A stretch of DNA of 64,000 bases from Candidatus Gastranaerophilales bacterium (GTDB lineage: Bacteria; Cyanobacteriota; Vampirovibrionia; Gastranaerophilales; Gastranaerophilaceae): positions 1 through 64,000 of the forward strand of contig CALVBW010000017.1 of NCBI GenBank assembly GCA_944325945.1. Reading direction: 5' to 3'. How positions within the stretch are numbered: the stretch's first letter is position 1; each line of letters opens with the position of its first letter. Under the pieces are notes generated by a model, which was not told the origin of the DNA, did no database searches, and worked only from the letters and a program-made list of their open reading frames with translations. The position numbers and the translations under genes are program-made. This document shows, piece after piece, positions 5,240 through 61,343 of the stretch.

Positions 5240-5245
5240 ATTATA
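5240..5245 (-). promoter_or_regulatory. -10 box of the glycosyltransferase operon (leaderless)
   Basis: TATAAT on the minus strand, 6 bases before the ATG at 5233. No Shine-Dalgarno intervenes, so transcription should start at or within a base or two of the start codon. Confidence 0.6.
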
Positions 5246-6331: not shown

Positions 6332-6337
6332 ATCATA
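6332..6337 (-). promoter_or_regulatory. Extended -10 box of dgt (leaderless)
   Basis: TATGAT preceded by TGA on the minus strand (extended -10 form), 6 bases before the dgt ATG; no Shine-Dalgarno. Confidence 0.55.
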
Positions 6338-14226: not shown

Positions 14227-14255
14227 TTGCAAAAAAATGTAAAATCATTTAATAT
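14227..14255 (+). promoter_or_regulatory. Promoter of the ATPase/TPR gene (leaderless)
   Basis: TTGCAA (14227-14232), a 17-base spacer, and TAATAT (14250-14255). The ATG follows after 6 bases and no Shine-Dalgarno is present. It is divergent from the envelope operon promoter. Confidence 0.6.
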
Positions 14256-16658: not shown

Positions 16659-17250
16659 AGAATTCTATAAAGATTATATGAATGCTTTTTTACGCCAGAA
16701 TGCGGCGGTTAATTTAATTTCAAAAAATGACGAAAAATTTTTGTGGGAAAAACATGTTTTTGACAGCCTTTCTATAGAAAAATTTTTTAAAAAGTATTAC
16801 CCTCTACCCCTGGCTGAGGGTAGAAAATTACTTGACATCGGAACCGGCGGCGGATTTCCGGCAGTTCCTATTGCATTAACCTATCCTGATTTAAAAGTCA
16901 CAGCACTGGACAGTATAAGAAAAAAAATTAATGCAATTGAAAATATTAAACATGAATTAAATATCCAAAATCTGATACCTATATGCAATCGTGCGGAAAA
17001 TTTGACGGAAAAATTTGATATAATTACCTCGCGCGCGGTTGCCTCACTTGATAAAATATGTGCTTATGCATTGCCTCTGCTCAAGAAAAACGGATTCTTT
17101 GTTGCATACAAATCCCGCAAAACACCTGAAGAAATTGCAGCAGCTTACAAAATTCTAAAGGAATATAGCGCAGAGGTAATTGATATTATTGAATATCAGT
17201 TACCTCTGGATGAAAATTTCACAAGAAATCTAATTATAATAAAGGCTTAA
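16627..17250 (+). CDS. rsmG: 16S rRNA (guanine-527 N7) methyltransferase RsmG/GidB
   Basis: Up to 207 residues. The SAM-binding motif LLDIGTGGGFPAVPIA and the following LKVTALDSIRKKINAIENI are diagnostic, with ITSRAVASLDKI as the later family motif. It methylates N7 of G527 in 16S rRNA. The start is uncertain: the frame opens with GTG at 16627 inside the upstream gene. TTG at 16648, about 10 bases after an AGAAAGG Shine-Dalgarno-like run, or ATG at 16678 are alternatives; family alignment favours 16648-16678. Its stop overlaps the convergent pilin-like gene by 4 bases. Confidence 0.92.
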   Translation: MKKGLKNLKNKEFYKDYMNAFLRQNAAVNLISKNDEKFLWEKHVFDSLSIEKFFKKYYPLPLAEGRKLLDIGTGGGFPAVPIALTYPDLKVTALDSIRKKINAIENIKHELNIQNLIPICNRAENLTEKFDIITSRAVASLDKICAYALPLLKKNGFFVAYKSRKTPEEIAAAYKILKEYSAEVIDIIEYQLPLDENFTRNLIIIKA

Positions 17251-18116
17251 TTTTCAGCATCTTTACAGCTATGCGAACCATCCCAGGATAATTTATCACG
17301 ACAGTGGAGATAATCCATATTCTTGTTATATATTACCCATGCAGCACACCCCATACCACCTATCGCACTGGTAGTTGCAGGATCACAACCGTCAATACCT
17401 TCAAATGAATAAGAAGTACTACCTTTCATACCGGCAGGAAACACACCTTTATCATTAAAGATAAAATAAAAACGATTTTTGCCTAAAACAGCATCTTTGC
17501 CGATAGGCAAAATGACATTAAATGATCCTGAATTGTTACTTGCAACAAAATGTCCCATGCTAACATATGTACCATCATTTAAGAAAAAACTTTGCTCCGG
17601 TGAAGCATCAGAATATTCATCTCCAGTCCAAACATGATTTGCTTCCAGCTGTAAAACCCCGCCTATAGAATAGTAAGCACCAGGATAACAAACTTTACCA
17701 GCTTCACATGTTTTTGATATTCTTAAATATTTTTTTATACGGTCAACGATTATTTGGTTTGCAGAATGATCATATATAGGTCTGTCATCATCACCAACCT
17801 GACCGGTATTTGTAGCTTTTAGCCCCCACGTACTTAATTGTCCGTGTTCAGCCTGCGCCATCTGATAAGCCTGTGACAATGTAGAATAAACTTTTGTAAG
17901 ACTTGAGACAACCTGCCTTTCCTGATATTTCGCAATCAGCGTTGGAATGGTCATTGCAGCGACAACACCGATTATACCGAGGGTGATTAAAACCTCTGCT
18001 AAAGTAAAAGCGGCACGCTTTGCGTGAGTAAGGTGAGGTTTGTGGTTTCTGTGAGCTTCGCTCACTACTCTGTCATCCTGAACTTGTTTCAGGATCCCTG
18101 ATTTATAATTCATCAT
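17247..18116 (-). CDS. Type IV pilin-like protein behind a poly-G leader (locus 1)
   Basis: The readable frame is 289 residues from ATG 18116. The prepilin-like segment KRAAFTLAEVLITLGIIGVV (from about residue 33) has Ala rather than Gly at -1 and Glu at +5. A secreted globular domain with several Cys pairs follows. No good Shine-Dalgarno precedes any start near the signal. The same frame stays open upstream to 18346. Joined to the strong start at 18382 by one extra G in the G9 tract, it would encode 379 codons. Repeat elements translated in this frame give KQVQDD and VVSEAH. Likely a surface minor pilin; its expression may depend on tract length. Confidence 0.8.
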   Translation of the reverse strand: MMNYKSGILKQVQDDRVVSEAHRNHKPHLTHAKRAAFTLAEVLITLGIIGVVAAMTIPTLIAKYQERQVVSSLTKVYSTLSQAYQMAQAEHGQLSTWGLKATNTGQVGDDDRPIYDHSANQIIVDRIKKYLRISKTCEAGKVCYPGAYYSIGGVLQLEANHVWTGDEYSDASPEQSFFLNDGTYVSMGHFVASNNSGSFNVILPIGKDAVLGKNRFYFIFNDKGVFPAGMKGSTSYSFEGIDGCDPATTSAIGGMGCAAWVIYNKNMDYLHCRDKLSWDGSHSCKDAEN

Positions 18117-18190
18117 ATTAGAATTATAATTTGTTTTATCTATTGTGTAAATTGTTTTGGTATATTTTCTGTCGGCTTGGTAATGCCGAC
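18013..18190 (-). repeat. Cluster of palindromic elements inside the locus 1 reading frame
   Basis: Four small inverted repeats lie within the open frame upstream of the prepilin signal: CACGC-TTT-GCGTG (18013-18025), GTGAGC-TTC-GCTCAC (18051-18065), ATCCTGAA..TTCAGGAT (18075-18095) and GTCGGC..GCCGAC (18171-18190). The last three recur, in the same order and frame, at the 60.3 kb pilin locus. All are read through without a stop. Confidence 0.8.
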
Positions 18191-18382: not shown

Positions 18383-18442
18383 TTTCGCTCTCCTTTATTT
18401 AAGATAATTATACGAAAAAACCGAATTTTTGGCAAGAATTTA

Positions 18443-18451
18443 TGCTATAAT
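18443..18451 (+). promoter_or_regulatory. Extended -10 of the ABC permease operon (leaderless)
   Basis: TGC-TATAAT (box at 18446-18451), 6 bases before ATG 18458; no Shine-Dalgarno. Confidence 0.6.
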
Positions 18452-18457
18452 AAATTT

Positions 18458-19330
18458 ATGTTCAAGTATTACGGCAAATACGCACCATATTTATTTTTGC
18501 TTCCTGCGGGATTATTGCTTATAGTATTCTTTTTTATACCGTTTTTTCAGACGGTAATTTTAAGTTTTCAGGACTATACAAACAATATTTACGCACCTGT
18601 TTTTGCGGGATTACAAAATTACACTGAACTTTTCAAAAATCCTATATTTTACAAAGTAATGCTGAATACATTCATTTATCTGATAGTAGCAGTGCCTGTT
18701 CTTGCGATAGTGCCGTTATTTCTGGCGGTTTTATTAAACCAAAAAATCCGCGGGATAACTTTATACAAAATTCTTATCTATCTTCCTGTAATTGTATCAA
18801 TAGTAGTTGCAGCAATTGCTTTTAAATGGCTGTATGCGGATCAGGGAATATTGAATTACATAGTTACATCGCTTGGATTTGATTCAATAGGGTGGCTGAC
18901 AGATCCGAATTGGGCTTTATATTCAGTAATAATTGTAACCATATGGAAGGGCATCGGATACTATATGATGATTTATCTGGCAGCGTTAATGAGTGTGCCA
19001 AAAGAATTATACGAAGCCTGCGACATCGACGGTGCAAACTTTTTAACCAAACACTTAACGGTCACGGTTCCGCAGATTATGCCGACAATTGCGCTTGTTG
19101 TGACCATAAGTTCAATATCCGCGATGAAAGTTTTTGCGGAAATTTATGTTATGACAAAAGGCGGGCCGCTGAATTCCAGCAAAACTATTGTTTATTATAT
19201 TTACGAAAGAGCATTTGAAAATCTTGATTTGGGCTATGCCTCAGCCATGGCAGTCGTACTTTTAGGAATAGTTATGGTATTTTCACTTATAAATATCCTG
19301 TGTTTTGAAAGGAAGAAATATCAGTTATGA
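18458..19330 (+). CDS. Sugar ABC transporter permease (MalF/UgpA type)
   Basis: 290 residues from ATG 18458. An in-frame start at 18374 is possible, but the extra 28 residues are not family-like and would overlap the pilin leader. Six hydrophobic segments. The EAA loop that docks the ATPase reads LYEACDIDGANFLTKHLTVTVP. Belongs to the CUT1 carbohydrate permease family. It overlaps the second permease gene by 4 bases. No substrate-binding protein or ATPase gene is next to it, so partners must be encoded elsewhere. Confidence 0.9.
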   Translation: MFKYYGKYAPYLFLLPAGLLLIVFFFIPFFQTVILSFQDYTNNIYAPVFAGLQNYTELFKNPIFYKVMLNTFIYLIVAVPVLAIVPLFLAVLLNQKIRGITLYKILIYLPVIVSIVVAAIAFKWLYADQGILNYIVTSLGFDSIGWLTDPNWALYSVIIVTIWKGIGYYMMIYLAALMSVPKELYEACDIDGANFLTKHLTVTVPQIMPTIALVVTISSISAMKVFAEIYVMTKGGPLNSSKTIVYYIYERAFENLDLGYASAMAVVLLGIVMVFSLINILCFERKKYQL

Positions 19331-21219: not shown

Positions 21220-21225
21220 ATAATA
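21220..21225 (-). promoter_or_regulatory. -10 box of the TPR gene (leaderless)
   Basis: TATTAT on the minus strand, 7 bases before ATG 21212. No Shine-Dalgarno. Confidence 0.5.
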
Positions 21226-22240: not shown

Positions 22241-22904
22241 AACTATATCAGTAAAAGAGACATCACCAACATTATGGAATATGTTTTTTGAAAGTCAAAT
22301 TGAAGAGAGAAAATTTTTAGTATATAATTTTAATATGAAAAGATTACTAATAGCTCTGACAGCAATAATACTCGGCGTTACATCAAGTTTTGCAGATGAA
22401 TTGAATGACAAAATAAAAATTTTGTATGCCGAAAATAATATTAAAGAAGCTTTTAACCTTCTGCTGAGTATTCCTGAAGAAGAAAGAAATGCACAAAACT
22501 GGCTTTTGATGGGGAATATTCTGCAGGACGAAAATAAAATTGATGACGCTGCATTTATGTATAACCGCGCGATTTCAGTTGATGAAAAATACTATAAAGC
22601 CTACTATAATTTAGGTAATATCTATATGCTTCAGGACAAACCCAATCTGGCAATTAATATGTACAAAAAAGCCGTCAAATATAACCCCGAATTTGCATAC
22701 GGGTACTACAATCTTGGCTGCGCTTACTTAAAAATAGATAAACCTAAATCCGCAAAATGGGAATTTTATAAAGCAATTGATTTGAATAATCAGGTTGCGG
22801 ATTTTCATTATAATCTTGCCTACACATTTAAAAAATTAAACAAAGAAAAACAGGCAAAACAATATCTGGATAATTACAACAAAATTATAGAACGGGGACA
22901 ATAA
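22236..22904 (+). CDS. Exported TPR protein
   Basis: 222 residues from ATG 22236, or 189 from ATG 22335. The second start gives a clean signal peptide (MKRLLIALTAIILGVTSSFA) but has no Shine-Dalgarno. The first has a perfect AAGGAG in a hairpin loop but puts 33 residues in front of the signal. After the signal come three to four TPR units (AAFMYNRAISVDEKYYKAYYNL, LAINMYKKAVKYNPEFAYGYYNLG, SAKWEFYKAIDLNNQ). Possibly both starts are used. Likely periplasmic scaffold; it lies just before a HAD phosphatase. Confidence 0.75.
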   Translation: MGTISVKETSPTLWNMFFESQIEERKFLVYNFNMKRLLIALTAIILGVTSSFADELNDKIKILYAENNIKEAFNLLLSIPEEERNAQNWLLMGNILQDENKIDDAAFMYNRAISVDEKYYKAYYNLGNIYMLQDKPNLAINMYKKAVKYNPEFAYGYYNLGCAYLKIDKPKSAKWEFYKAIDLNNQVADFHYNLAYTFKKLNKEKQAKQYLDNYNKIIERGQ

Positions 22905-30967: not shown

Positions 30968-30977
30968 ATTGTATAAT
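30968..30977. promoter_or_regulatory. Overlapping divergent -10 boxes (matrixin / ybaB-recR)
   Basis: Ten bases ATTGTATAAT hold TATAAT for the rightward ybaB-recR operon (30972-30977) and, on the other strand, TACAAT (30968-30973) for the leftward matrixin gene. The two boxes share two bases, so both promoters cannot be occupied at once. Confidence 0.55.
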
Positions 30978-32776: not shown

Positions 32777-32805
32777 TTGCAATATGTTCATAAATAATAT
32801 AAAAT
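32777..32805 (+). promoter_or_regulatory. Promoter of the ABC ATPase gene (leaderless)
   Basis: TTGCAA (32777-32782), 17-base spacer, TAAAAT (32800-32805), then 7 bases to ATG 32813. No Shine-Dalgarno. Confidence 0.6.
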
Positions 32806-32812
32806 TAGCAAT

Positions 32813-33778
32813 ATGGCACTGTTAAATATTGAAAATTTATCTGTAGAATACAAATCCAAACGCGGGATAACAGGCAAAACCGAAACAATTCATGCCGTGA
32901 ATAATATTTCGCTTGAAATTAATAAAGGAGAAATTCTTGCAGTTGCTGGAGAATCCGGCTGCGGCAAATCAACTCTCGCAAAAGCCATAATGCTTCTTGA
33001 AAATGCATGCGGAGGAAAAATCATTTTTGAAGGAAAAAATGTCTTAAAAATGAATAAGGCAGAATTAAAATGTTTTCGCCAAAAGGTACAAATGATTTTT
33101 CAAAATCCTTATGCAAGCTTAAATCCGAAAATGAAAATTTTCGACACTCTGGCAGAACCGTTAAAAATCAATACAGATCTGACAAATGAACAAATAAAAA
33201 AAACAGTAATTGATACGGCATGCAAAGCAGGACTTGATGAAGAATGCCTGAAACTTTATCCGCACGAATTTTCAGGCGGTCAAAGACAGAGGATTGCAAT
33301 AGCCCGCGCGCTTATTTTAAACCCTGAATTTATACTGGCAGATGAACCCGTGAGCGCCCTGGATGTAAGTATTCAAGCACAGATTATCAACCTTTTAAAA
33401 CAATTAAAAGATGATTATAATTTAACATTTTTATTCATTTCACATGATTTGAGCGTGATTAAATACTTATCCGACAGGGTTGCCGTGATGTACCTTGGAG
33501 AAATAGTCGAAATCGGTACAACCGACGAAATTTTCTTCACGCCTGAACACCCTTATACAAAAGCTTTATTAAGTTCTGTTCCGCAGATAACAAAAACCGG
33601 TGACGAAAAGATTATTCTTGAAGGAGATCTGCCGTCGCCCGCTGATTTACCTCAAGGGTGTAAATTTCACACACGCTGCCCGTATTGCATGCCGGTTTGC
33701 CGCGAAAAAATGCCCGACGAAACCCGAATTACGGATACACACTATGTAAAATGCTTTTTGGCAAAATCCATGATATAA
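32813..33778 (+). CDS. Oligopeptide/dipeptide ABC transporter ATPase (OppF/DppF type)
   Basis: 321 residues. Walker A GESGCGKST, Q-loop QMIFQNPYASLNPKM, ABC signature FSGGQRQRIAIARAL, Walker B FILADEPVSALD, and His-loop FISHDLSVI. The C-terminal oligo_HPY extension has FHTRCPYCMPVC. It normally pairs with OppD and two permeases, none of which are adjacent. Followed 8 bases later by smpB. Confidence 0.93.
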   Translation: MALLNIENLSVEYKSKRGITGKTETIHAVNNISLEINKGEILAVAGESGCGKSTLAKAIMLLENACGGKIIFEGKNVLKMNKAELKCFRQKVQMIFQNPYASLNPKMKIFDTLAEPLKINTDLTNEQIKKTVIDTACKAGLDEECLKLYPHEFSGGQRQRIAIARALILNPEFILADEPVSALDVSIQAQIINLLKQLKDDYNLTFLFISHDLSVIKYLSDRVAVMYLGEIVEIGTTDEIFFTPEHPYTKALLSSVPQITKTGDEKIILEGDLPSPADLPQGCKFHTRCPYCMPVCREKMPDETRITDTHYVKCFLAKSMI

Positions 33779-33779
33779 T
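33771..33779 (+). promoter_or_regulatory. Extended -10 of smpB (leaderless)
   Basis: TGA-TATAAT (box 33774-33779), 6 bases before the smpB ATG. It overlaps the stop codon of the upstream ATPase gene. Confidence 0.55.
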
Positions 33780-37657: not shown

Positions 37658-38941
37658 TTACGAATACATCTGATCTTCCCAGTATTCCATTTCAAGGTGA
37701 CCGATGACGATTGTGTCGCCGTCTTTTACACCCTGTTTTTTAAGCTCTTCAAATACCCCCATGCCGGTCAAAATATTTTGAAGCCTTATAATCTGCTCGG
37801 TGTTTCTGGCATCCGTAACTGCAGCGAGCCGCTTAATTTTACCGCCGTCAACAATGTATGTGTCTTTGGCGGCTTTATAAACCTCAAAAGCGCTGTCATC
37901 GTTATTGTAAGCGTCCAAATCTTCTTCAACGACAATATCTGACACATGATGCTCAATCTCATCCACTTTGACCGCCATAAAATCAAGCAATTTATCAAGA
38001 TTTTCGCCTGTTACTGCAGAAATAAGGAAAACATCCTTAGCAGCTTTTTTAAACTCTTCATACAATTCATCCTGTCTTGAGTTATCAACTGCGTCGATTT
38101 TATTCAAAACAACGATTTGATAGAGATTGGCGAGCTTTTCGGAATGCTTTTCAAGCTCTGAATTAATTATTTCGTAATTTTTCAAAGGATCGTCAGCCGT
38201 AATATCGACAAGGTGAACAAGGAAACGGCAGCGCTCTATGTGACGCAAAAATTCATGCCCGAGCCCCACACCTTCAGACGCACCTTCAATCAAGCCCGGA
38301 ATATCCGCAACCACATAACCGTCGCCGGAGCGTTTTTTAACCACACCCAGATTAGGAATTAAAGTAGTAAAAGGATAATCGGCAATTTTTGGTTTAGCGG
38401 AAGAAATTCTGCTAATAAGTGTTGATTTTCCGGCATTCGGCATACCTAAAAGCCCGACATCGGCAATTAACTTTAATTCAAGCTCAAGTTCGCGTTCAAT
38501 TCCGGGTTCACCCGGCTCGCAAAACTGCGGGGCGCGTTTTTGAGCGGTTGCAAATCTTGCATTACCTCTGCCGCCTCTGCCGCCTTTTGCAACAAGAACT
38601 TTTTGTTCGTGTTCGGTCAAATCCGCAATCGCGTTACCTGTTTTTAAATCTCTTACAACGGTTCCGACGGGAACTTTTATCACTAAATCTTTTGCACAGC
38701 GACCGTGCATATTTTTAATACTGCCGTTTTCGCCGTTTTCAGCTTTGAATACGGATTTATATTTAAAATCCATCAAAGTTGACATATTTTCATCCGCAAT
38801 CAAATAGACATCGCCGCCCGAGCCGCCGTCACCGCCTGCTGGGCCGCCTTTATCCACGTACTTTTCACGGCGCCAGGCAACCATACCGTTGCCGCCGCGT
38901 CCGGAAATTATTCTTATACGTGTTTTGTCTAAAAATTGCAT
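37658..38941 (-). CDS. obg: GTPase Obg/CgtA
   Basis: 427 residues, with the full three-part layout: Gly-rich Obg fold (VDKGGPAGGDGGSGGDVYL, then GGRGGRGNARFATA), a GTPase domain (GMPNAGKSTL, DIPGLIEGASEGVGLGHEFLRH, VVLNKIDAVD), and a C-terminal OCT domain (RLQNILTGMGVFEELKKQGV). Ribosome assembly and stress GTPase. Shine-Dalgarno AGAGGA. Divergent from tsaD. Confidence 0.97.
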   Translation of the reverse strand: MQFLDKTRIRIISGRGGNGMVAWRREKYVDKGGPAGGDGGSGGDVYLIADENMSTLMDFKYKSVFKAENGENGSIKNMHGRCAKDLVIKVPVGTVVRDLKTGNAIADLTEHEQKVLVAKGGRGGRGNARFATAQKRAPQFCEPGEPGIERELELELKLIADVGLLGMPNAGKSTLISRISSAKPKIADYPFTTLIPNLGVVKKRSGDGYVVADIPGLIEGASEGVGLGHEFLRHIERCRFLVHLVDITADDPLKNYEIINSELEKHSEKLANLYQIVVLNKIDAVDNSRQDELYEEFKKAAKDVFLISAVTGENLDKLLDFMAVKVDEIEHHVSDIVVEEDLDAYNNDDSAFEVYKAAKDTYIVDGGKIKRLAAVTDARNTEQIIRLQNILTGMGVFEELKKQGVKDGDTIVIGHLEMEYWEDQMYS

Positions 38942-38965
38942 TTATTTTCCTCTTTGTATTACAAT
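38936..38965 (+). promoter_or_regulatory. Promoter of tsaD (leaderless)
   Basis: TTGCAT (38936-38941), 18-base spacer, TACAAT (38960-38965), then 6 bases to ATG 38972. The -35 lies on the first codons of obg on the other strand. Confidence 0.55.
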
Positions 38966-38971
38966 AATACT

Positions 38972-40012
38972 ATGAAAATGACAAAAAATACATTATTTAC
39001 GGAAACTCCTGTTACAATAGGACCCGAAAGCGGGTATGACAACTATATTATGGCAATTGAATCAAGCTGCGACGAAACAGCATGCGCAATTGTAAAGAAC
39101 GGCCGCGAAGTTATATCAAACGTTGTGGCGTCCCAGATTAAGACACACGAAAAATACGGCGGTGTAATTCCCGAAATTGCCGCCCGCGAACATCTTGAGT
39201 CCATAAATGTAGTAATAGAAGAAGCTTTCAAGCAGGCAAATATGAAACCGGAAGACATAACGGCATTTGCCGGAACTGTCGGACCGGGGCTTGTTGGGTG
39301 TCTTTTGGTCGGATTAAATGCCGCAAAAACTCTTGCTCTTGTTTATGACAAACCGTTTATCGGAGTTAATCATCTGAATGCGCATCTTTGCGGAAATTAT
39401 ATTGATACAGACCTCAAACCGCCTTATATCGCGCTTTTAATCAGCGGCGGGCATACTCAGATTATTGACGTAAAATCATATTCGGAACAAAAAATTATCG
39501 GTGAAACAATAGACGACGCCGTAGGCGAAGCTTATGACAAAGTTGCAAGGCTCATAGGACTTCCGTATCCGGGAGGACCTGTTCTGGATAAACTTGCAAA
39601 AGAAGGCAATCCTCATGCGTTTAAACTTCCCGAAGCAAAAGTTGACGGATATAATTTCAGCTTCAGCGGGTTGAAAACCGCTGTCCTCAGGCTTGTAAAA
39701 TCTTTTGACGGGCAGGAACTTCCCGTAAACGACATTTGCGCAAGTTTTCAGGAATGCGTTTCATCAACATTATTTAAAAAGGTTAAAAAAGCGCTTGAAG
39801 AAAGCGGTTACAATCAGGTTGTAATCGCAGGCGGCGTCGCTGCAAATTCCGAAATCAGAAGAAAAATTTTCTCACTTGAAGAAGATGGCTACAGAGTAAA
39901 TGCTCCCCTGATGAAATACTGCACGGATAATGCGGCAATGGTTGCATCATGCGCGTACTTTAATACAAATACATTTGACGACATTGACGTTGAAGTCTTT
40001 TCAAGAGCATAG
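38972..40012 (+). CDS. tsaD: tRNA N6-threonylcarbamoyladenosine transferase TsaD
   Basis: 346 residues from ATG 38972. About 26 extra residues precede the normal family start (IMAIESSCDETACAIV); ATG 39050 would remove them. Motifs: FAGTVGPGLVGCLLVG, metal ligands in GVNHLNAHLCG, LLISGGHTQI, FSFSGLKTAVLR, and VIAGGVAANSEIR. Makes t6A37 in ANN-decoding tRNAs with TsaB and TsaE. Stop overlaps gshB by 12 bases. Confidence 0.95.
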   Translation: MKMTKNTLFTETPVTIGPESGYDNYIMAIESSCDETACAIVKNGREVISNVVASQIKTHEKYGGVIPEIAAREHLESINVVIEEAFKQANMKPEDITAFAGTVGPGLVGCLLVGLNAAKTLALVYDKPFIGVNHLNAHLCGNYIDTDLKPPYIALLISGGHTQIIDVKSYSEQKIIGETIDDAVGEAYDKVARLIGLPYPGGPVLDKLAKEGNPHAFKLPEAKVDGYNFSFSGLKTAVLRLVKSFDGQELPVNDICASFQECVSSTLFKKVKKALEESGYNQVVIAGGVAANSEIRRKIFSLEEDGYRVNAPLMKYCTDNAAMVASCAYFNTNTFDDIDVEVFSRA

Positions 40013-41693: not shown

Positions 41694-41699
41694 TAAAAT
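41694..41699 (+). promoter_or_regulatory. -10 box of ribD (leaderless)
   Basis: TAAAAT, 6 bases before ATG 41706, with TTTAAA 17 bases upstream of the box; no Shine-Dalgarno. Confidence 0.5.
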
Positions 41700-42745: not shown

Positions 42746-42751
42746 TATAAT
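42746..42751 (+). promoter_or_regulatory. -10 box of the Memo gene (leaderless)
   Basis: TATAAT, 6 bases before ATG 42758; no Shine-Dalgarno. Confidence 0.5.
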
Positions 42752-45307: not shown

Positions 45308-45316
45308 ATTATAGCA
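45308..45316 (-). promoter_or_regulatory. Extended -10 of dnaX (leaderless)
   Basis: On the minus strand TGC-TATAAT (box 45308-45313), 6 bases before ATG 45301. Confidence 0.6.
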
Positions 45317-58679: not shown

Positions 58680-59285
58680 CTAGATAATCCCCTGCCTTGC
58701 CAAATCTTTTTTAATCTTGTCCAATCCTGATTGAATAATTCTTGAAATTCTGGATTGTGAAATATTAAATTCTTCCGATATTTCTCTCAGTTTTTTCTCT
58801 TTAAAAAACTTATATTCAATCAATTCTCTTTCACGCTCCGAAAGTTTTTTCATGGATTCCATAATTTCATGTTTCAATTCAACGAATTCAATGGATTCTT
58901 CGGGATTTCTGTCCTCGGACTTAATCTGAGTAGGGACTTCGGCATCCTGCATTTCGTCAATCGAGAGGATAGTTTTATAGACTTCTTCACGCAAATTGTT
59001 ATCGTATTCTTCTTCTGTTTGTTTTTTGTTTTTCAAAGAATACCATTTATAGCGTCTTCTGACCTCATTTCTGATAGCCCACTTGATTGCGGTTGAAAGA
59101 TAAGTATTATTGAAATCCTCAGGCTTATGGCTTTTAAAAAGCACATAAAGCGTATGATTGCCTATATTAATCAATTCCGGCAGCTCAATTAAATGTGAAG
59201 ATGAGAACTTCTGGTACTCCACTTTTGCAATCATTTCTATTAAATCTTTATAATCTCTCAGATTGACTTTTGGCGTTGCCGGCAT
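58680..59285 (-). CDS. Sigma-70 family RNA polymerase sigma factor
   Basis: 201 residues. Region 2 is recognisable (LPELINIGNHTLYVLFKSH, then LSTAIKWAIRNEVRRRYK) and region 4 is complete: LSERERELIEYKFFKEKKLREISEEFNISQSRISRIIQSGLDKIKK with a helix-turn-helix. Region 3 is short or absent. This resembles alternative sigma factors of the FliA/SigF/SigB class rather than ECF. First gene of the operon leading to gcvPB, miaA and the AsmA giant. Weak GGGAT Shine-Dalgarno. Confidence 0.88.
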   Translation of the reverse strand: MPATPKVNLRDYKDLIEMIAKVEYQKFSSSHLIELPELINIGNHTLYVLFKSHKPEDFNNTYLSTAIKWAIRNEVRRRYKWYSLKNKKQTEEEYDNNLREEVYKTILSIDEMQDAEVPTQIKSEDRNPEESIEFVELKHEIMESMKKLSERERELIEYKFFKEKKLREISEEFNISQSRISRIIQSGLDKIKKDLARQGII

Positions 59286-59397: not shown

Positions 59398-60267
59398 ATG
59401 AACGTACTATTCTGCACTGACGGATCAAAAATAAGCTATGACGCAGTAAAAAACTTTGCACACTGGGTAAAAAACGCGACCGTTGATATAATTTGCGTAA
59501 TTGATTGGAGTTTTTTACCCGATAATACGATAATAGAAGAAAACGGTTTTGTAACAAGCTGCCGCAACAATGCAGACTGCATACTTAAAAAGGCTGAAGA
59601 AGAAATTAACGCAACCGGATTAACTGTCGGCGAAAAGATTAAACACTGCGGAGCAGTTGTTGAAAGTATACTTGAACAACTTGATAAAAAAAATTACGAT
59701 ATGGTGATTTTGGGTTCGCACGGCAAAAAAGGTATCCAAATCTGGCTCGGGTCAGTGTCAAGAGAAGTGCTTGAAGCCGCAAAAATTCCCGCATACATAT
59801 CTAAACAGGCAAACAGCGGCAAAAATGTCTTATTTACAACAGACGGAACGGAAGTTTCCATAAATACAACTCAAAAAGCAATAGAAACACTTGATTTATC
59901 TGACAAAAACATTTATATCTGCACGGTGACGGAAAATCCGGATTTGTTATTTTTGGAAGGCACGCTTGACGCCAACTGGATGATGGCAATAAGAACACAG
60001 CAGCAAATATATTCGGACAGTGCAATCAAAACCCTGCTGGCACTATTTGAAAAATACAATCTTCAAGTTAAACAAAGCAGAATTTTAGAAGGTGTACCAG
60101 CCCAAAGCATACTAAATTACGCAAGGGAAGAAAACATCGACATGATTGTCACGGGTTCTAAAGTAAAAACAAAAATGCAAAGCTTTTTACTGGATTCAGT
60201 AAGCAAACGCGTTGTCGAAAACGTAAAAAGCGATGCATTTGTAATAAAAATTCCCTACCAGGGATAA
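59398..60267 (+). CDS. Tandem universal stress protein
   Basis: 289 residues with two Usp domains (about 1-140 and 141-289). The first keeps the ATP-binding G-2x-G-9x-G-S motif (GSHGKKGIQIWLGSVS). In the second it is degraded (TGSKVKTKMQSFLLDSVS), so only one site probably binds nucleotide. AAAAGGAG Shine-Dalgarno. Its stop overlaps the convergent pilin-like gene by 13 bases. Confidence 0.9.
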   Translation: MNVLFCTDGSKISYDAVKNFAHWVKNATVDIICVIDWSFLPDNTIIEENGFVTSCRNNADCILKKAEEEINATGLTVGEKIKHCGAVVESILEQLDKKNYDMVILGSHGKKGIQIWLGSVSREVLEAAKIPAYISKQANSGKNVLFTTDGTEVSINTTQKAIETLDLSDKNIYICTVTENPDLLFLEGTLDANWMMAIRTQQQIYSDSAIKTLLALFEKYNLQVKQSRILEGVPAQSILNYAREENIDMIVTGSKVKTKMQSFLLDSVSKRVVENVKSDAFVIKIPYQG

Positions 60268-61343
60268 TCATCTTTAATCTGCCAGCCGTCATAAAAAATC
60301 AATGCCGCGCACCAGTAACCTTTCTTGTTGCTGTTACAAGAATAACCATTTGATGAACTAAGTACATAATCTCTTGAATATATGCCGTCAGGAAAACGCC
60401 ATGTTTGAGCTGTTCCGGCATCACCAAGCGGTCTGAGGCCATATTCGGAACTCATAAAAAATAAAAAAGTATCTTTTCCGACTGTATTGGGTTCTTTTGT
60501 GCCATTCACATCAATTCCGATCCATAATCCGCCTTCTACCACACCATTAAGATTTGCGCTAATCAATGAACCGTCAGATAATACAAAATGCGTGGCACGA
60601 GTAGAAACAGGTGCATAAGTGGTACCTGAATAATCCGAGCCGTTCAAGTTGTATCTGGGCGCCACATCCCAGAGCTCAGCAGACGTAAAATTTTTGGAAG
60701 ATACAATATAATCGGCAAAATATTTCGCAAAAAACTCTTTTCCGTTCAAGGATGTATCCCATCTTTCAACAGGACCGTTCACGTTCTGTGACATTAATAT
60801 TGCCTGCTGAACCGTACTGTAAGCTTTTTTCAGAGCAGTCACGGTTTGTTTCTTCTGATATTTTGAAATCAAAGTAGGAATTGTCATTGCCGCCACAATC
60901 CCGATTATGCCGAGGGTTATTAAAACTTCTGCTAAAGTAAAGGCGGCTTTTTTAGAAGATACTAAGTTACTAAGACAGTAAGGCACTAAGTGTTTACTGT
61001 GAGCTTCGCTCACTAATTTGTCATCCTGAACTTGTTTGACTACTTTTTCCAAAATCTTTGATTTTGTGAAAAATGTCCGGTTTTTCCGCAGGATCTCTGA
61101 TTTATAATTCATCACATTAGAATTATAATTTGTTTTATATATTGTGTCAATTGTTTTGGTATATTTTCTGTCGGCTTGGTAATGCCGACCCACTAATTTT
61201 TCCCTCCCGCCCTTGAGGAACAAAGGGAGCCAACGAGGTACGAGTTGTGCGACCCTGTTTCCGGAACGTAGTGAAGGTGGGAGGGTTAGGGTGGGGGGAT
61301 GCTTGAGATCCTGAATCAAGTTCAGGATGACATGGTAAGTCAC
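60255..61343 (-). CDS. Type IV pilin-like protein behind a poly-G leader (locus 3)
   Basis: The readable frame is 362 residues from GTG 61343. The prepilin signal SSKKAAFTLAEVLITLGIIG lies about 130 residues in, far beyond a normal leader. A globular domain follows with GIDVNGTKEPNTVGKDTFLF and the ending WQIKDDYPW. The frame remains open upstream through repeats all the way to 61528. With one extra G in the G9 tract it joins the strong ATG at 61564 as 437 codons. The region before the signal is translated repeat DNA (LVGRHYQADRKYTKTI, KQVQDD, VSEAH), shared with locus 1. Confidence 0.8.
   Translation of the reverse strand: MTYHVILNLIQDLKHPPTLTLPPSLRSGNRVAQLVPRWLPLFLKGGREKLVGRHYQADRKYTKTIDTIYKTNYNSNVMNYKSEILRKNRTFFTKSKILEKVVKQVQDDKLVSEAHSKHLVPYCLSNLVSSKKAAFTLAEVLITLGIIGIVAAMTIPTLISKYQKKQTVTALKKAYSTVQQAILMSQNVNGPVERWDTSLNGKEFFAKYFADYIVSSKNFTSAELWDVAPRYNLNGSDYSGTTYAPVSTRATHFVLSDGSLISANLNGVVEGGLWIGIDVNGTKEPNTVGKDTFLFFMSSEYGLRPLGDAGTAQTWRFPDGIYSRDYVLSSSNGYSCNSNKKGYWCAALIFYDGWQIKDDYPW

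Follow-up and report, generated by a model that had tools for sequence, protein, structure and literature searches.

The sugar ABC transporter permease gene at 18458 begins six bases after a TATAAT box and has no Shine-Dalgarno (SD) site, raising the question of whether its transcript starts at the ATG itself and whether other genes share this arrangement. The gene lies in a stretch of 64,000 nucleotides from a Candidatus Gastranaerophilales bacterium, referred to here as the window. The first-pass annotation had listed twelve genes in the window, each with a TANNNT box just upstream of the ATG and without an SD site, and each of these ATGs and boxes was confirmed, as was the lack of an SD site. 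The boxes, the gap (number of bases between box and ATG), two further candidates found beyond the twelve, and one contrasting start are as follows.

5240..5245, minus strand: -10 box TATAAT, gap 6 to ATG 5233, WecG/TagA/CpsF glycosyltransferase.
6332..6337, minus strand: extended -10 TGA-TATGAT, gap 6 to ATG 6325, dGTP triphosphohydrolase.
14250..14255, plus strand: weak box TAATAT, gap 6 to ATG 14262, protein with a STAND/AAA-like N-terminal region and TPR repeats.
18123..18128, minus strand: further candidate, TATAAT, gap 6 to ATGATG at 18116, prepilin-like gene.
18446..18451, plus strand: extended -10 (TGC)TATAAT, gap 6 to ATG 18458, UgpA-like sugar ABC transporter permease.
18458..19330, plus strand: the permease gene (BPD_transp_1, PF00528), starting at 18458 and not at the longest-ORF start 18374; the ortholog in G049 aligns at ATG 18458.
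21220..21225, minus strand: weak box TATTAT, gap 7 to ATG 21212, TPR protein.
22323..22328, plus strand: further candidate, TATAAT, gap 6 to ATG 22335, internal to the ORF of a TPR protein.
30968..30973, minus strand: -10 box TACAAT, gap 6 to ATG 30961, matrixin-like metalloprotease, divergent from SD-bearing 31014(+).
32800..32805, plus strand: weak box TAAAAT, gap 7 to ATG 32813, oligopeptide ABC transporter ATPase.
33774..33779, plus strand: extended -10 TGA-TATAAT, gap 6 to ATG 33786, SmpB, with a same-strand gene 8 bp ahead.
38941..38960, minus strand: contrast, obgE start with an SD site (AGAGGA), facing leaderless tsaD.
38960..38965, plus strand: -10 box TACAAT, gap 6 to ATG 38972, TsaD.
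41694..41699, plus strand: -10 box TAAAAT, gap 6 to ATG 41706, RibD, divergent from SD-bearing 41648(-).
42746..42751, plus strand: -10 box CGC-TATAAT, gap 6 to ATG 42758, Memo-like protein, with ribD 17 bp ahead.
45308..45313, minus strand: extended -10 TGC-TATAAT, gap 6 to ATG 45301, DnaX.

The spacing of 6 to 7 bases claimed for the twelve genes is correct gene by gene, with ten at gap 6 and two (21212 and 32813) at gap 7, but genome-wide only 6 stands (see below). Ten of the ATGs are preceded by T and two by C. The proteins of all 12 genes match a known family or domain, mainly TPR repeats for 14262 and 21212 and a matrixin-like peptidase for 30961. ORF coordinates place a divergent neighbour upstream of 8 of the 12, in agreement with the claim that most are first in their operon, and a same-strand gene ahead of 5233, 6325, 33786 and 42758 by about 60, 25, 8 and 17 bp, respectively. 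When the window ATGs were scored with a promoter matrix against 2302 internal in-frame ATGs, 9 of the 12 were individually significant (0 to 0.0022 of internal ATGs scored as high), the training set of the matrix having included some of the 12 sites. The remaining three, 21212 (0.021), 32813 (0.050) and 14262 (0.24), are weak alone.

ATG 22335 is the probable true start of its TPR protein. The gene at 18116 is one of a dispersed repeat family of prepilin-like genes, found in the window at 17250-18116 (-) and 60255-61343 (-) and elsewhere at L008, L012, L003, L011 and L002. The 5' region of these genes, including the promoter, is ~80-90% alike at several loci, and the genome has TATAATTCTAATATG at six listed places. 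A palindromic stretch (CCTGAAACAAGTTCAGG) within them is read through as coding sequence.

Spacing was assessed in a 464 kb sample of the genome (369 genes) against dinucleotide shuffles of the upstream sequences. The simple in-house method used for start calling is biased, in some analyses, toward starts that have the motif; the shuffle test avoids this bias by using only the first ATG of each ORF. At gap 6, 5-of-6 matches to TATAAT numbered 45 versus 7.8±2.6 in shuffled sequence, and TANNNT 50 versus 14.8±3.3; the gap-6 box is thus far commoner than in shuffled upstream sequence, the comparison that the first-pass annotation had proposed. Gap 7 showed no enrichment over the dinucleotide shuffles in the same 369 genes (11 versus 8.5 for 5 of 6 TATAAT, 14 versus 14.5 for TANNNT), so the genome-wide spacing is 6 and not 6-7. 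Perfect TATAAT was found at gap 6 in 22 cases, and no other gap from 0 to 39 had more than 6. Over the entire genome, TATAAT-N6-ATG occurs 123 times versus 27 for the reversed pattern, while at gap 9, which has the same codon phase, TATAAT occurs 42 times versus 31 in the reversed control. Across the genome, perfect TATAAT mildly exceeds the reversed pattern at gap 7 as well (78 versus 41); gap 7 as a second preferred genome-wide spacing was ruled out by the first-ATG histograms.

Aligned gap-6 sites form an extended -10, TTTNTGNTATAAT-N4-TT followed directly by ATG, and in the logo a TGN precedes TATAAT with T at 0.86 and G at 0.58 at the TG positions. A conserved TTGACA -35 element ~17 bp upstream of the box was not found, and T is weakly enriched at -35/-34 relative to the ATG. 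Position -1 is T or C in 42 of 43 gap-6 sites versus 171 of 300 other ATGs. Both here and in G003, leadered promoters have the same motif as the leaderless class, which rules out a separate promoter class for leaderless genes. The commonest T-to-R step at leadered promoters falls 7 bases after the box (22/85 and 23/77 in the two genomes), the position held by the A of the ATG in the gap-6 class; this signal is modest. Segments 18430-18451 and 33760-33779 have TTTTTGGCAA in common, upstream of the extended -10, with TTGGCA 10-11 bases before TATAAT. The window also carries a gene for a small sigma-70 family factor (58680-59285, minus strand; TIGR02937, ~200 aa), possibly an alternative sigma factor.

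About 50 of the 369 genes (13.5%) score as leaderless at a threshold passed by 17 of 2302 internal ATGs. SD sites were found in 2 of 47 leaderless genes versus 226 of 300 others (p~1e-21). They also precede 70 of 100 non-leaderless operon-internal genes, which bears out the view that two initiation modes coexist. Leaderless genes make up 31 of 128 (24%) with a divergent upstream neighbour versus 16 of 219 (7%) with a same-strand neighbour, and are enriched as first genes of transcription units (p~2e-5); -10 boxes further upstream are rarer at these genes (p=0.006). All eight divergent pairs in the sample with <60 bp between start codons include a leaderless partner, such tight pairs being noted at 38941-38972 in the window and at L004 and L020. 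In two pairs both genes are leaderless, with 42-44 bp between them, so that one short spacer holds two opposed promoters. The layout was found at 43 of 725 ATG candidates versus 0 of 584 GTG/TTG, a difference partly confounded because in-frame GTG and TTG are mostly not real starts; ATG-only usage would be consistent with translation from a 5'-terminal AUG by 70S ribosomes. The assembly of the window yielded no 16S 3' end, and the congener G087 has GGATCACCTCCTT, the expected 16S 3' end with the anti-SD.

The layout persists in orthologs whose flanks can no longer be aligned. In the sampled DNA of G003, from another genus, it is kept in 8 of 14 leaderless orthologs versus 2 of 58 non-leaderless ones (p~1e-5), the box not being clearly kept in the other 6 of the 14. 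The gap-6 box of tsaD is kept in most of 13 relatives sampled, TAAAAT at gap 6 in most relatives that have ribD, and that of dnaX in G087, G031, G003 and G054. Boxes of SmpB (33786) and the Memo-like gene (42758) are kept in G087, where the 32813 layout is also identical; in G031 the 42758 box is shifted away from the ATG by one base, to gap 7. The G049 ortholog of the permease keeps a weaker, TGTAATAAT-like box. The 6325 box is not kept in G037, and the single 21212 ortholog examined has no box at the chosen start. The ATGs of tsaD and divergent obgE (38941-) are separated by 30 bp, and SD-like sites persist at obgE and 41648(-), which face tsaD and ribD; for obgE a purine-rich stretch is seen in most relatives.

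Distribution was measured as the forward/control ratio of TATAAT-N6-ATG per group. In the phylum sample, the photosystem reaction-centre family PF00124 was found in 47 of 117 genomes, which identifies the phylum as Cyanobacteriota in the broad sense and makes the family of the window a non-photosynthetic one. This family has a ratio of 3.1, with at least 2.0 in 49 of 49 genomes, and f5 has 3.9. Ratios are high in f9, f12, f13 and f3 on few counts, because of their high GC. Family f2 (1.6) peaks at gap 7-8 instead of 6, which suggests a shifted or looser leaderless layout; SD use in its member G105 (L072-L090) is low, 0.30 versus 0.17 in the internal control. No group excess was seen in the 47 photosystem-bearing genomes (0.65), nor in f16 (0.98), f19 and f30, which are without a PF00124 match. 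The f16 genomes G035 and G047, without PF00124 match or leaderless signal, are incomplete (74-87%), and their missing photosystem may be an assembly gap. Of the other families in the phylum that lack the photosystem, most have the layout, but not all.

Outside the phylum, that of 'Candidatus Saganbacteria' (L240) has a ratio of 2.6, with >1.5 in 38 of 47 genomes, and a member with 57% GC has 6 copies of TGNTATAAT-N6-ATG versus 0.6±0.7. Saganbacteria and Margulisbacteria are close neighbours of Cyanobacteria (PMC6349859). The Saganbacteria genome and the named control genomes came from a TsaD alignment search, in which matches were mostly to Firmicutes, TsaD being universal. Among the named genomes, those of photosynthetic cyanobacteria, Paucisalibacillus and a Clostridium had no excess, though a mild one was seen in Eisenbergiella and some further genomes from outside the cyanobacteria. 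A leaderless extended -10 six bases before the ATG might have been present in the common ancestor of Cyanobacteriota and Margulisbacteria/Saganbacteria, kept in most non-photosynthetic lineages and largely lost toward oxygenic cyanobacteria, a tentative scenario given slightly less than even odds.

Leaderless transcription of these genes is very likely, and the reading that a large minority of genes are leaderless, with an extended -10 six bases before the ATG and the SD mode for the rest, is given a probability of about 0.9. The housekeeping sigma70-type RNA polymerase would bind the extended -10 (TTTNTGNTATAAT), with its last T 6 bases before the start codon, and the box-to-ATG geometry and the T-A initiator would place the transcription start at the A of the ATG. 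Such a transcript has no 5' UTR or SD site, so ribosomes would have to recognise an AUG at its very 5' end, presumably through the direct binding of 70S that has been shown in other bacteria. The remaining genes, mostly operon-internal or behind promoters that leave a leader, would use ordinary SD initiation. As leadered promoters carry the same extended -10, the two modes would differ in promoter placement and not in promoter type. Support for this reading comes from an extended -10 rather than generic AT-richness, the pyrimidine-A step, the exclusion of SD sites, the use of ATG only, the location at transcription unit starts, the scarcity of other -10 boxes further upstream and the conserved spacing.

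Boxes of this kind might also arise by chance in AT-rich upstream DNA and be picked out by selective reading, as the 34-40% GC of the window and the three individually unconvincing boxes (14262, 21212 and 32813) could imply. However, the gap-6 peak is not reproduced by dinucleotide shuffles, reversed controls or neighbouring gaps, and it is missing from AT-rich photosynthetic and Clostridium genomes whereas the sister-phylum genome with 57% GC has the same motif. Chance is refuted for the set as a whole, where its probability is negligible, and is possible for 14262, 21212 and 32813 individually.

The distance from -10 to transcription start varies by one or two bases in bacteria generally, and the sequence would look no different if transcripts began 1-2 bases away from the ATG. 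Transcription from a few bases upstream, producing very short leaders (1-5 nt) on genes that are not truly leaderless, would draw on this variability and on the f2 peak at gap 7-8, but is improbable given how sharply the boxes peak at gap 6, with T at -1 and A at +1, as expected if transcription begins with the A of the ATG. It is more improbable still that the box is an A/U-rich translation element on mRNAs starting further upstream, as in Bacteroidetes-type or S1-dependent initiation. A/U-rich stretches ahead of the ATG are known in low-SD bacteria (PMC5397173), but the motif found here is a complete extended -10, the same as at leadered promoters, other upstream -10 boxes are rarer at leaderless genes, and SD use is otherwise normal.

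Leaderless expression as predicted here would extend to a large, mostly uncultured group that probably includes the gut Gastranaerophilales. Gene finders that assume SD sites may misplace leaderless starts, and both 18458 and 22335 sit inside longer ORFs. Within one phylum, the nearest non-photosynthetic relatives appear to mix SD with leaderless initiation, whereas no leaderless signature is seen in the oxygenic cyanobacteria sampled; the single oxygenic genome examined for SD sites had no excess of these. This contrast makes it testable when and why cyanobacteria changed their initiation signals.

Leaderless genes of this kind are already known. The passages considered here from the survey of Zheng et al. 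2011 (PMC3160421) describe TA-led genes with TANNNT/TATAAT, the first T ~12 bp upstream of the start, that are without SD sites and proximal, with TG before the box in low-GC genomes. The present genes resemble them in box position, lack of SD, proximal location and TG before the box. The same passages report that many Cyanobacteria rely on neither SD sites nor leaderless genes, while the non-photosynthetic relatives and Margulisbacteria are absent from them. In Deinococcus-Thermus, Zhong et al. 2025 (PMC12340547) describe tests of a -10 a few bases before the ORF as a leaderless start element with a spacing requirement. The location of the box is alike here, but that source gives ~30% of ORFs versus ~13.5% here, and TANNNT versus the strong extended TGNTATAAT. 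The same study includes a domain-wide scan, with phyla given only in a supplementary figure.

SD and leaderless modes also coexist in mycobacteria (PMC4633059; review PMC9031893), and the review describes recognition of the 5'-end AUG by 70S ribosomes. Mycobacteria accept GUG starts (PMC9031893), whereas GUG/UUG-type leaderless starts number 0 of 584 here. In Synechocystis (PMC5386190), from the same broad phylum, 48 mRNAs are leaderless, with 5' ends at AUG as predicted here from the upstream motif; they are rare and poorly conserved (6 between two close strains), whereas the Gastranaerophilales layout is common and conserved across genera. No paper on both 'leaderless' and 'Melainabacteria' was found in the open literature, subscription papers and supplementary figures being outside its scope. 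The kind of initiation is therefore that of Zheng et al. 2011, Deinococcus and Actinobacteria, and the lineage and distribution of the leaderless layout are new as far as the open literature shows.
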